Positions 11,760 through 14,854 of a stretch of DNA of 64,000 nt are shown here, one piece after another (the first letter of the stretch is position 1; the number at the start of each line of letters is the position of its first letter). The DNA lies in NCBI RefSeq assembly GCF_000759025.1, contig NZ_JPOS01000079.1:124001-188000 (forward strand). Direction: 5' to 3'. The translations under genes and the position numbers were made by a program. Origin of the DNA: Phaeodactylibacter xiamenensis. Lineage in GTDB: Bacteria > Bacteroidota > Bacteroidia > Chitinophagales > Saprospiraceae. Under the pieces are notes generated by a model. It had not been told where the DNA came from and ran no database searches. It was given only the letters and a program-made list of their open reading frames with translations.

Positions 11760-12833
11760 TCACGGGAAGTTCTTTGAAAATTGGAAAGAAAGATTCATAG
11801 CATGCCTGACATAAAATCGGACAGCCCTCAGTCCAATCTGAAACACGGACAAGCTATCGATTCGGTCTTTACGGCAGAATTTACCCAACTGGGCTGAGGT
11901 TCGGGCATCAAACTCGAACAAGATACAGATGATGAAAGCCAGGCTAGCCACGATCAAGAGATTGAACAAGGTTTGAGGCTCTTCAATCCTGGTTTTATGA
12001 ATGTGGAATCCGCGAGATTTGATATCGCCGAAAAAGGTTTCAATGTGATACCTCTTTCGGTAATATGTTTCGGCTTGCGGGCCATATTCCAAGCTGGTCA
12101 ACAGATACAAAGGTCGGTCATATCGGGTCCGGTCATGCCAGAACAAGACATTGACTGGCCCAAACCCTTGCTTAGTCACATACATTTGGGGCAGGAACAA
12201 GCTTTTTTGACCGATACTTGCGGCCAAATGGCCAAAAGCCGAAGCATTCTCCATGTCCGGATGATCGGCTACCAAAGTATCCTTCGCCGTTTTTAGCACG
12301 TACTCCCAACCGTGAGCCAAACAAGACTGTTGCAACTCGCAGCCGTCGAATTCGGCATCTCCCAGCAGGAAAATCCGGCAATCCTGTTCCAGGATACTGT
12401 CCATAAGCATCGCCACTTGACCGATAATGGCCACGTGCATGTGTTCCGGGAAATGGCCTTTGGGAGCTTTACGAACTACCCAACAAATGGGAATGGCTCG
12501 CCTGCGCCAGATTACACTGACCATCAGCGCCATGCAGTCTTTGCCCACACAGGAGCCATCGATGGCCAGAACTAACTCTCCAGCCTTGCTCAGAGAGTGG
12601 AGAATCGGAAGAAGGTAGGGTATAAAGTGTACCGTGACATCGGTCCACTTATTTTGCAACCAACGCTTGGCCTTCTTGACCCGACTTTCCAGGTCAGTGG
12701 GGTCTTCCATATGGCGGCCCAACTCTGATAAAGATGCCCGGCCACCTTTGATTAAGGCACCTAATAAACCAGATAAGACGGTTAATCGACGCAAGGCGTT
12801 GCCTTGTGGAACCTCAGATTGATGCTTTATCAA
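11760..12833 (-). CDS. IS4-family-like DDE transposase
   Basis: LVLAIDGSCVGKD, LLGDAEFDG and YYRKRYHIETFFGDIKSRGFHIHKTR (Y-R-E-K-type signature); lies between matched TIRs. Confidence 0.88.
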   Translation of the reverse strand: MIKHQSEVPQGNALRRLTVLSGLLGALIKGGRASLSELGRHMEDPTDLESRVKKAKRWLQNKWTDVTVHFIPYLLPILHSLSKAGELVLAIDGSCVGKDCMALMVSVIWRRRAIPICWVVRKAPKGHFPEHMHVAIIGQVAMLMDSILEQDCRIFLLGDAEFDGCELQQSCLAHGWEYVLKTAKDTLVADHPDMENASAFGHLAASIGQKSLFLPQMYVTKQGFGPVNVLFWHDRTRYDRPLYLLTSLEYGPQAETYYRKRYHIETFFGDIKSRGFHIHKTRIEEPQTLFNLLIVASLAFIICILFEFDARTSAQLGKFCRKDRIDSLSVFQIGLRAVRFYVRHAMNLSFQFSKNFP

Positions 12834-13070: not shown

Positions 13071-13109
13071 CATCGCTCTTAGAAAAAAGGGTATTTGAAA
13101 TATTAATAA

Positions 13110-13185
13110 GCGGATGTAGCTCAGCTGGTAGAGCGCAACCTTGCCAAGGTTGAGGTCGCGGGTTCGAATCTCGTCATCCGCTCCA
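13110..13185 (+). tRNA. tRNA-Gly(GCC)
   Basis: GCGGATG/CATCCGC acceptor stem, CAACC-TTGCCAA-GGTTG anticodon arm, GCGGG-TTCGAAT-CTCGT T arm, U73, encoded CCA. Confidence 0.95.
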
Positions 13186-13231
13186 CTAAAAGTGGAGCAA
13201 AGTGTTGCTTCACTCATTTGAAAATAAGTAA

Positions 13232-13418
13232 GCGGATGGAGCGTCCCGATAACTATCGGGACTAAGGTTGAAGTCCGGCGGGGCCCCGACAAGCTTTGCT
13301 TCGTCGGGGATGCAGACAGGCAAAGCCTCGTCTGCATTCGAACTTGCCCTGACAAAACCTTTTCGTCAGGGTCTCGCTTGTCCGACGTAGCCTTGGCGAA
13401 GTAGGATCATCCGCTCCA
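13232..13418 (+). other. tRNA-Gly-derived remnant with hairpin insertions, copy 1 (187 nt)
   Basis: Starts gcggatg and ends catccgctcca; the interior holds palindromes GTCCCGATAACTATCGGGAC, CCCCGACaagctttgcttcGTCGGGG, ATGCAGACaggcaaagcctcGTCTGCAT, CCCTGACaaaaccttttcGTCAGGG. Confidence 0.8.
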
Positions 13419-13491
13419 CGAAGTGAAGCAAAATGTTGCTTCACGACAATTGAAATAAAATTAGTAAGCTCTAATATTTTAGGGCAAATAA

Positions 13492-13621
13492 GCGGATGTA
13501 GCTCAGCTGGTAGAGCGCAACCTTGCCAAGGTTGAGGTTCGGCGGGTCCCGACGAAGCACAGCTTGTCGGGATGCAGACAGGCAAAGCCTGGTCTGCATT
13601 CGAATCTCGTCATCCGCTCCA
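13492..13621 (+). other. tRNA-Gly(GCC)-like gene interrupted in the T arm by two hairpins (130 nt)
   Basis: Intact acceptor, D and anticodon arms; between GCGGG and TTCGAAT lie TCCCGACgaagcacagcttGTCGGGA and TGCAGACaggcaaagcctgGTCTGCA. Confidence 0.85.
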
Positions 13622-13688
13622 AATTGATGGAGCAAAAAAGTTGCTCTTTTGTACTGAAAAATAAGATTAGCTTTAGCAAAGCAAATAA

Positions 13689-13764
13689 GCGGATGTAGCT
13701 CAGCTGGTAGAGCGCAACCTTGCCAAGGTTGAGGTCGCGGGTTCGAATCTCGTCATCCGCTCCA
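13689..13764 (+). tRNA. tRNA-Gly(GCC), second intact copy
   Basis: Same sequence as 13110-13185. Confidence 0.95.
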
Positions 13765-13810
13765 CTAAAAGTGGAGCAAAGTGTTGCTTCACTCATTTGA
13801 AAATAAGTAA

Positions 13811-13997
13811 GCGGATGGAGCGTCCCGATAACTATCGGGACTAAGGTTGAAGTCCGGCGGGGCCCCGACAAGCTTTGCTTCGTCGGGGATGCAGACAGGC
13901 AAAGCCTCGTCTGCATTCGAACTTGCCCTGACAAAACCTTTTCGTCAGGGTCTCGCTTGTCCGACGTAGCCTTGGCGAAGTAGGATCATCCGCTCCA
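13811..13997 (+). other. tRNA-Gly-derived remnant with hairpin insertions, copy 2 (187 nt)
   Basis: Same as 13232-13418 by eye. Confidence 0.8.
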
Positions 13998-14040
13998 AAT
14001 TGGAGCAAAGCAGTTGCTTCACTCATTTGAAAGGAACTAA

Positions 14041-14187
14041 GCAGATGTGGCTTCCCGGTAAAACAGAGGTAGATCATCCCTGTGCAACCGGGATTAAGTT
14101 TGAGATCGCGGGTCCCGACGAATCACAGCTTGTCGGGGATGCAGACAGGCAAAGCCTCGTCTGCATTCGAATCTCGTCATCCGCTCA
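14041..14187 (+). other. Third, more diverged tRNA-Gly-derived remnant with hairpin insertions
   Basis: gcagatgtggcttcccgg... followed by gcgggTCCCGACgaatcacagcttGTCGGGgATGCAGACaggcaaagcctcGTCTGCATtcgaatctcgtcatccgctca. Confidence 0.75.
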
Positions 14188-14189
14188 AA

Positions 14190-14218
14190 AGCCTTCTGTA
14201 CGCAGAAGGCTTTTTTTG
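14190..14218 (+). terminator. Rho-independent terminator after the tRNA-Gly cluster
   Basis: AGCCTTCTG tac GCAGAAGGCT TTTTTTG. Confidence 0.85.
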
Positions 14219-14326
14219 TTTGCCGGTAGCCCCTATTTTGGCTATCTTGTGAGCGCTAGTAAGCATACCACTCAACGGAGTGGAGCTTTACTTTAGCCAT
14301 ACCTTTTTATTGGATGTACCCAATTT

Positions 14327-14651
14327 GCCCGGATGGTGGAATTGGTAGACACGCAGGACTTAAAGCAATTTGAGTGCGCCGGCGGAAACGCCGGATGTAG
14401 AACTTCTCAAATTCGGGGAAGCCTTCTCCTTTATCGGAATGGTAATCCCGAGCCAAGTCCCGGCCTAGCCGGGGAAGGTGTAGAGACTTGACGGGAAGCG
14501 CCTAAGTACGGACAATCGTCGGTATACGGTGAAGAGAAAGTCCAGGTCACAAATCCTGACATTGATCGTCAGGGGCAGCGAAAGCTGTAGCTGGTAAGAA
14601 AATCCTGTGGCCATTGCGGCCGTGCGGGTTCAAGCCCCGCTCCGGGTACCA
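14327..14651 (+). tRNA. tRNA-Leu(UAA), split gene: exon 1 14327-14361, exon 2 14599-14651
   Basis: Joined exons GCCCGGATGGTGGAATTGGTAGACACGCAGGACTT + AAAATCCTGTGGCCATTGCGGCCGTGCGGGTTCAAGCCCCGCTCCGGGTACCA closely match bacterial tRNA-Leu(UAA). Confidence 0.93.
14362..14598 (+). ncRNA. Group I intron (IC3/cyanobacterial tRNA-Leu-like), ~237 nt, ORF-less
   Basis: Inserted after U34; ends in G; P-like CTCAAATTCGGGGAAGCC, Q-like GGTAATCCCGAGCCAAGTCC, R-like AAGGTGTAGAGACTTGACGGGAAGCGCC, S-like GAAGAGAAAGTCC, P9-like GCAGCGAAAGCTGT. Confidence 0.92.
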
Positions 14652-14689
14652 CAGGGTACTAACTATAGTACCCATTGAAACGCTGACGA

Positions 14690-14720
14690 AGCCCTGTATT
14701 CCTGGAATGCAGGGCTTTTT
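14690..14720 (+). terminator. Rho-independent terminator after tRNA-Leu
   Basis: AGCCCTG tattcctggaatg CAGGGCT TTTT. Confidence 0.8.
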
Positions 14721-14854
14721 AGCGTTTGATGCCCATCCTTACGCAGCTGGGCGAACGGGACGACGACCTTAATGCCGACTTGTTTACAGTCTCTTTTGAT
14801 ACCTACAATCAGATGATTGATGCCTTTACGTTTTTGATATATCCACCAAAGGGC

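Follow-up and report, generated by a model that had tools for sequence, protein, structure and literature searches.

An interrupted tRNA-Leu(UAA) gene in Phaeodactylibacter

The window analyzed here, a stretch of 64,000 nucleotides from a 7.87-Mb Phaeodactylibacter genome, carries a tRNA-Leu(UAA) gene (14327–14651, +) that a 237-nt group I intron interrupts in the anticodon loop, after U34 (Table 1). The gene was recovered by ARAGORN with introns allowed; without introns, the program reported no tRNA at these positions and only two tRNA-Gly genes in the whole window. The intron starts with AAAGCAAUUUGAG and ends with GGUAAG. The insertion has a precise empty counterpart: in a congener (G002), tRNA-Leu(UAA) is uninterrupted and identical to the joined exons of the window at 88/88 bases, and the adjoining stretches of its contig align to window positions 13986–14364 and 14599–14723. 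This empty site lies on a 209-kb contig with the window's neighboring genes in the same order, in an assembly that is 61% complete. Because of it, the intron boundaries are fixed independently of any intron model. An earlier, sequence-only reading of this DNA had proposed that the exons join into a canonical tRNA-Leu(UAA) around an ORF-less insert of about 237 nt that follows U34 and ends in G. These points hold: the 88-nt joined product folds as tRNA-Leu(UAA), the ARAGORN boundaries agree with the empty site, the final G is invariant in related introns, and no ORF of at least 100 aa lies within the 237 nt. The Bacteroidota-like character noted in that reading is likewise borne out, the host being of the same genus as Phaeodactylibacter luteus KCTC 42180 (G005).

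Table 1. Features of the tRNA-Leu(UAA) locus in window coordinates
Feature	Position	Strand	Basis
tRNA-Gly(GCC), conserved upstream neighbor	13110–13185	+	ARAGORN; same neighbor in relatives
tRNA-Gly(GCC), second intact copy	13689–13764	+	ARAGORN
5' exon of tRNA-Leu(UAA), ending at U34	14327–14361	+	ARAGORN; equals positions 1–35 of the uninterrupted gene of G002
P1: exon ACUU (14358–14361) / guide GAGU (14372–14375), U.G at 5' splice site	14358–14375	+	99% paired, 24 introns
Group I intron, 237 nt, ORF-less, last base G (omega-G)	14362–14598	+	RF00028, E 8.3e-11; covariation; empty site
P10, possible: AUUU with exon-2 AAAU	AUUU at about 14368–14371	+	Read from sequence
P2 hairpin, CCGGCG-GAAA-CGCCGG	14379–14394	+	Both-side changes in 6/6 pairs
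P3 5' strand, partner 14493–14498	14403–14408	+	5/6 pairs covary; 100% paired
P4 (14413–14418/14446–14451); P5 (14421–14423/14441–14443)	within 14413–14479	+	24-intron covariation count
P6 (14452–14454/14477–14479); P6a (14459–14464/14468–14473)	within 14413–14479	+	24-intron covariation count
P7 5' strand GACUU, partner AAGUC 14538–14542	14485–14489	+	100% paired; fifth pair covaries UA/AU/GC
P3 3' strand (14493–14498); P8 (14499–14502/14528–14531)	14493–14531	+	P8 100% paired; 3/4 pairs covary
P9.0 (14546–14548/14593–14595); P9 (14555–14560/14568–14573); P9a (14575–14579/14584–14588)	14546–14595	+	24-intron covariation count
3' exon of tRNA-Leu(UAA), encoded CCA included	14599–14651	+	ARAGORN; 53/53 identical to G002

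Most relatives keep the order tRNA-Gly(GCC)–tRNA-Leu(UAA) alongside the intron; their genomes were independently assembled and include that of P. luteus. Since this order is conserved in many independent genomes, cyanobacterial contamination and misassembly, both raised by the sequence-only reading, are excluded. The stretch preceding the split gene (13105–14190) is a tRNA-Gly(GCC) array in which 300 nt are exactly duplicated (13105–13404 equals 13684–13983) and in which the T arm of tRNA-Gly-like copies is interrupted by palindromes (for example 13492–13618, with a 66-nt insert, and 14040–14185). The palindrome TGCAGACAGGC...GCCTCGTCTGCA has four copies in the genome, all within this array; it is present at the same locus in G002 and in a further congener, G003, and absent there in P. 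luteus. Extra tRNA-Leu 3'-half fragments with an insert between tRNA positions 65 and 66 occur in G003 (G003:C493; L200:6711–6787 and L200:7096–7222) and closely resemble the tRNA-Gly copies that are interrupted in the window. A DDE transposase (DDE_Tnp_1, E 8.9e-10) lies at 11760–12833 (−), about 0.3 kb upstream of the array.

Group I identity and the predicted splicing pathway

The insert matches the Rfam model Intron_gpI (RF00028) over the full model (1–253) with a score of 48.5 bits (E 8.3e-11), 1.5 bits lower than the curated gathering score of 50; falling under that threshold, it is missing from a default Rfam scan. We wrote the fold from the window sequence and evaluated it on an alignment of 24 introns of the same tRNA-Leu site from related genomes. 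The 57 named pairs are paired in 95.4% of 1358 cells, as against 80.8% in shuffled alignments and at most 46.6% with the partners slid, and changes on both sides are seen in 33 of the 57. The covariation score is 0.471 versus 0.180 for shuffled alignments (0/500 shuffles reach 0.471) and at most 0.118 with slid partners; the fold energy lies 3.5 standard deviations below that of shuffled sequences (z −3.5). The group I identity first proposed from the letters is upheld by a covarying P1–P9 fold, together with a model match that is significant though under the curated threshold.

P3, P7 and P8 are paired in all 24 introns, and P7 crosses P3, a pseudoknot that creates the G-binding site; covariation backs this core. 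The 5' splice site likewise has U.G in 24/24 introns. P1 hardly varies, which fits the requirement that it match the anticodon loop. At P9.0 the window intron differs from the family consensus, with GGUC in place of GACC: the pairing there is GUC/GGU (G.U, U.G, C-G) versus the usual ACC/GGU, with one Watson–Crick pair left.

We found no second tRNA-Leu(UAA) in the same genome, where the best pattern-match region holds Leu(CAG) and Leu(CAA), and our tuned model detected a single group I intron there. Therefore, by the decoding rules, UUA codons probably depend on the split gene, and splicing would be expected to be needed. We infer that the intron is spliced in the cell. The precursor would fold with exon ACUU paired to intron GAGU as P1; a guanosine held in P7 would cut after U34; the freed exon would then attack after the terminal G, and the exons would join as tRNA-Leu(UAA), with end processing to follow.

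Presence, absence and mosaicism among congeners

The flanking acyl-CoA dehydrogenase places the congeners at 99% (G002), 87% (G003), 75% (P. luteus) and 52% (G032) identity to the window. G003, P. luteus and G032 carry the intron. As the nearest congener alone lacks it, the comparison suggests that the presence of the intron changed recently, by loss or replacement in G002; gain by transfer was weighed against loss on six congeners only, and their separation is not firm. The window intron is itself composite: P3–P5 is identical to P. luteus at 53/53 positions and to G003 at 40/64, and P7–P8 matches G003 at 66/68 positions and P. luteus at 45/68. The simplest reading is that it is a mosaic of the introns of two congeners, which points to recombination among the introns of the genus.

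Distribution and mobility in Saprospiraceae and other Bacteroidota

The earlier suspicion that such introns are uncommon in Bacteroidota did not hold up. Intron_gpI matches are found in 75 of 398 family genomes (taken as Saprospiraceae from named members), and also in further Bacteroidota families and classes, where 23S rRNA is a host as well. The host genes in the family are tRNA-Leu(UAA), at two sites, tRNA-fMet, tRNA-Gln(CUG), tRNA-Arg(UCU) and tmRNA. The exons allowed 84 of the 104 loci read to be assigned, with 34 at Leu(UAA)-U34, 8 at Leu(UAA)-U33, 27 in fMet, 12 in Gln(CUG) and 3 in Arg(UCU); several further loci are tmRNA introns. The distribution is patchy: of 298 family genomes sampled, 204 gave a match to an uninterrupted Leu(UAA) gene. 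Named members recovered by the genome scan are mostly Saprospiraceae, with one each from Cyclobacteriaceae, Flavobacteriales, Gammaproteobacteria and planctomycetes (MAG).

Several ARAGORN calls were revised in this survey. Labels of 'Leu(CAA)' or 'Met' on genes beginning CGC were rejected, these being initiator tRNA-fMet; some genes labelled 'Leu(TAA)' proved to have their intron after position 33; and calls of 'tRNA-Gly with intron' proved to be adjacent tRNA genes merged by the program. In the genus g7 (L016, L075, L082, L084, L088, L098, L101, L102), the tRNA-Leu(UAA) intron lies one base earlier, after U33 as in fMet, which indicates a second insertion event.

The window intron encodes no homing endonuclease, and longer relatives encode endonuclease-like proteins. 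The fMet introns code for PDDEXK_5 proteins (159.9 bits) whose nearest PDB chain is 2ost_A (E 1.7e-57), which we take to be I-Ssp6803I, the homing endonuclease of the cyanobacterial tRNA-fMet intron. The ~720-nt Leu introns and the ~690-nt Gln introns encode HNH-like proteins that score 19.1 and 18.8 bits, under the Pfam cut-off of 21.4. Eight Leu(UAA) introns with an insertion near the 5' end (L019, L053, L064, L069, L077, L092, L099, L100) start with the motif GTTCTTTG(A); the motif resembles an rRNA boxA antitermination site and is followed by an HNH-like ORF in the ~720-nt forms. The tRNA introns of Saprospiraceae have very probably been gained, lost and recombined repeatedly, and endonuclease genes in some relatives would drive homing. 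For the ORF-less copy of the window, movement or change probably comes about through recombination across the conserved exons, or else through an endonuclease supplied elsewhere.

Phage and plasmid relatives

A core-motif scan of viral contigs yielded 20 contigs (L133–L152), most of which have an intron of the same kind splitting tRNA genes (Ala, Arg, Leu(UAA), Met and others). Some of these introns carry HNH-like ORFs, and three of the contigs have such an intron in apparent protein genes; a 2014 review knows phage introns from protein genes only (PMC3984707). No cyanobacterium was returned by the scan of genome contigs for the intron, and no cyanobacterial intron of useful length by the phage and plasmid searches. 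In the core tree (86 rows, 146 columns, of low resolution, with provisional reference sequences for Anabaena, plastid and Azoarcus), the Leu-U34, Leu-U33 and fMet introns of Saprospiraceae and the phage tRNA introns are poorly resolved among one another. The mixing of the Bacteroidota cores with those of phage tRNA introns, and not with the cyanobacterial cores, is a lead from this tree and not a result. Global identities to other intron classes, computed with gaps, came out too high because the gaps were cheap, and these values were discarded.

Introns at the same gene also occur on plasmids. In NZ_CP139688.1 (L153:2488–2788), a complete tRNA-Leu(UAA) beside aac(3)-IId is split at the U34 site by a 215-nt group I intron. 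Near-identical loci are found in 1280 plasmid records (935 of these are predicted to be conjugative) and in 635 of the 5426 complete E. coli genomes; among the records listed, the locus either has no annotation or is covered by a hypothetical protein. A predicted conjugative plasmid of Bradyrhizobium sp. ISRA443 (L154:1501–1759) carries tRNA-Leu(UAA) with a 204-nt group I intron, and this locus aligns to that of the window with 71.6% identity over 98% of the query.

Competing histories

The sequence-only reading had offered horizontal transfer or deep retention as histories of the intron. A simple transfer from cyanobacteria and an unbroken deep retention both fit poorly, because the intron is present and absent in sister species, is a mosaic in the window, and has a core that mixes with those of phage tRNA introns. 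Under deep retention, an ancestral tRNA-Leu(UAA) intron predating the split of Cyanobacteria and Bacteroidota would have been kept by a minority and otherwise lost. The U34 site and a similar core, both shared with the cyanobacterial and plastid intron, speak for it, as does the tRNA-Gly(GCC)–tRNA-Leu(UAA) order with the intron in many Saprospiraceae, a Cyclobacteriaceae genome and a Flavobacteriales genome; moreover, a clade of Bacteroidota Leu-U34 introns only is not rejected (p-AU 0.121 and 0.187). However, the uninterrupted gene in most sampled relatives would require very many losses, and the mosaicism within the genus also speaks against unbroken descent. The phylogeny with cyanobacterial introns leans the same way: the provisional Anabaena and plastid rows form a group with a pair of phage protein-gene introns, separate from the remaining 82 rows (97/88), and placing them in one clade with all other Leu-U34 introns is weakly rejected (p-AU 0.0245, or 0.0509 when Anabaena is the only one added) on 146 columns with these provisional references. 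We therefore regard deep retention as unlikely.

A recent transfer from cyanobacteria or a plastid, for example that of a diatom host, into the Phaeodactylibacter lineage could draw on the resemblance in site and core, and on the name of the genus, which refers to a diatom. Yet the nearest relatives of the window intron are other Bacteroidota introns and not the provisional Anabaena or plastid ones, the intron is widespread in Saprospiraceae and other Bacteroidota, and the exons are ordinary Saprospiraceae sequence, as the congener's uninterrupted gene attests, which makes such a transfer very improbable. It is likewise very improbable that the locus is a dead insertion or an artefact, whether a broken tRNA or a chimeric contig: the Rfam score slightly under threshold and the degenerate tRNA-Gly array close upstream would suit it, but the same arrangement recurs in independent assemblies, P. 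luteus included, compensatory changes run throughout the fold, and the exons are intact in what is the only Leu(UAA) copy found.

We thus consider it very probable, from comparative sequence evidence, that the window holds a functional intron of the known tRNA kind in a lineage marked by intron gain, loss and recombination; we call it IC3-like, a label judged from the compact core and motif resemblance only. More tentatively, and at somewhat less than even chances, U34 of tRNA-Leu(UAA) may be a repeatedly colonized landing site, with introns circulating among Bacteroidota tRNA genes, phage tRNA genes and conjugative plasmids. If so, the site shared by Cyanobacteria and Bacteroidota would be no proof of common intron ancestry, and the usual argument for intron antiquity from position only would be weakened.

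Comparison with known systems

Bacterial tRNA group I introns have been placed in Cyanobacteria and in alpha- and beta-Proteobacteria (review PMC4033280, which cites Paquin et al. 1997 for the Anabaena tRNA-Leu(UAA) intron). The kind of intron is thus known, and Bacteroidota are not listed as a host phylum in PMC4033280 or PMC3984707; our search of literature on group I introns, tRNA-Leu and Bacteroidetes/Bacteroidota, mostly in open-access coverage, found no report of the window intron. More interesting is that tRNA introns recur within a single Bacteroidota family and have relatives in phages and on plasmids. With introns in at least four tRNA species and tmRNA, sister species with and without the intron, and both endonuclease-bearing and ORF-less forms, the Saprospiraceae are a natural system in which tRNA introns can be followed as they are gained, lost and transferred, and they bear on a long-standing question, namely whether the tRNA-Leu intron is an ancient element or a mobile one.

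Among the systems already described, the tmRNA T-loop group I introns also occur in Saprospiraceae, those at position 8 being reported from this family only (PMC11915505), but they differ from the window intron in gene and site and form a distinct clade (100/99). The Azoarcus tRNA-Ile(CAU) intron and other proteobacterial tRNA introns are similarly compact and share the motif GGUGUAGAGACUNGACGG; they reside in another tRNA, and the provisional Azoarcus row joins the Arg(UCU) introns from a different class of Bacteroidota (96/97). The cyanobacterial tRNA-fMet intron with I-Ssp6803I has its counterpart in the Saprospiraceae fMet introns, which likewise encode PDDEXK_5 proteins matching 2ost_A, whereas the window intron lies in tRNA-Leu and has no ORF. 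Finally, the cyanobacterial and plastid tRNA-Leu(UAA) intron shares with the window intron the gene, the U34 site, the P1–P9 plan, the splice-site U.G, the terminal G and, in its short forms, the lack of an ORF. The differences are the host phylum, the separation of the two in the core tree, and the core motif, which is GUGUAGAGACUUGACGG in the window versus GUGCAGAGACUCGACGG in Anabaena.
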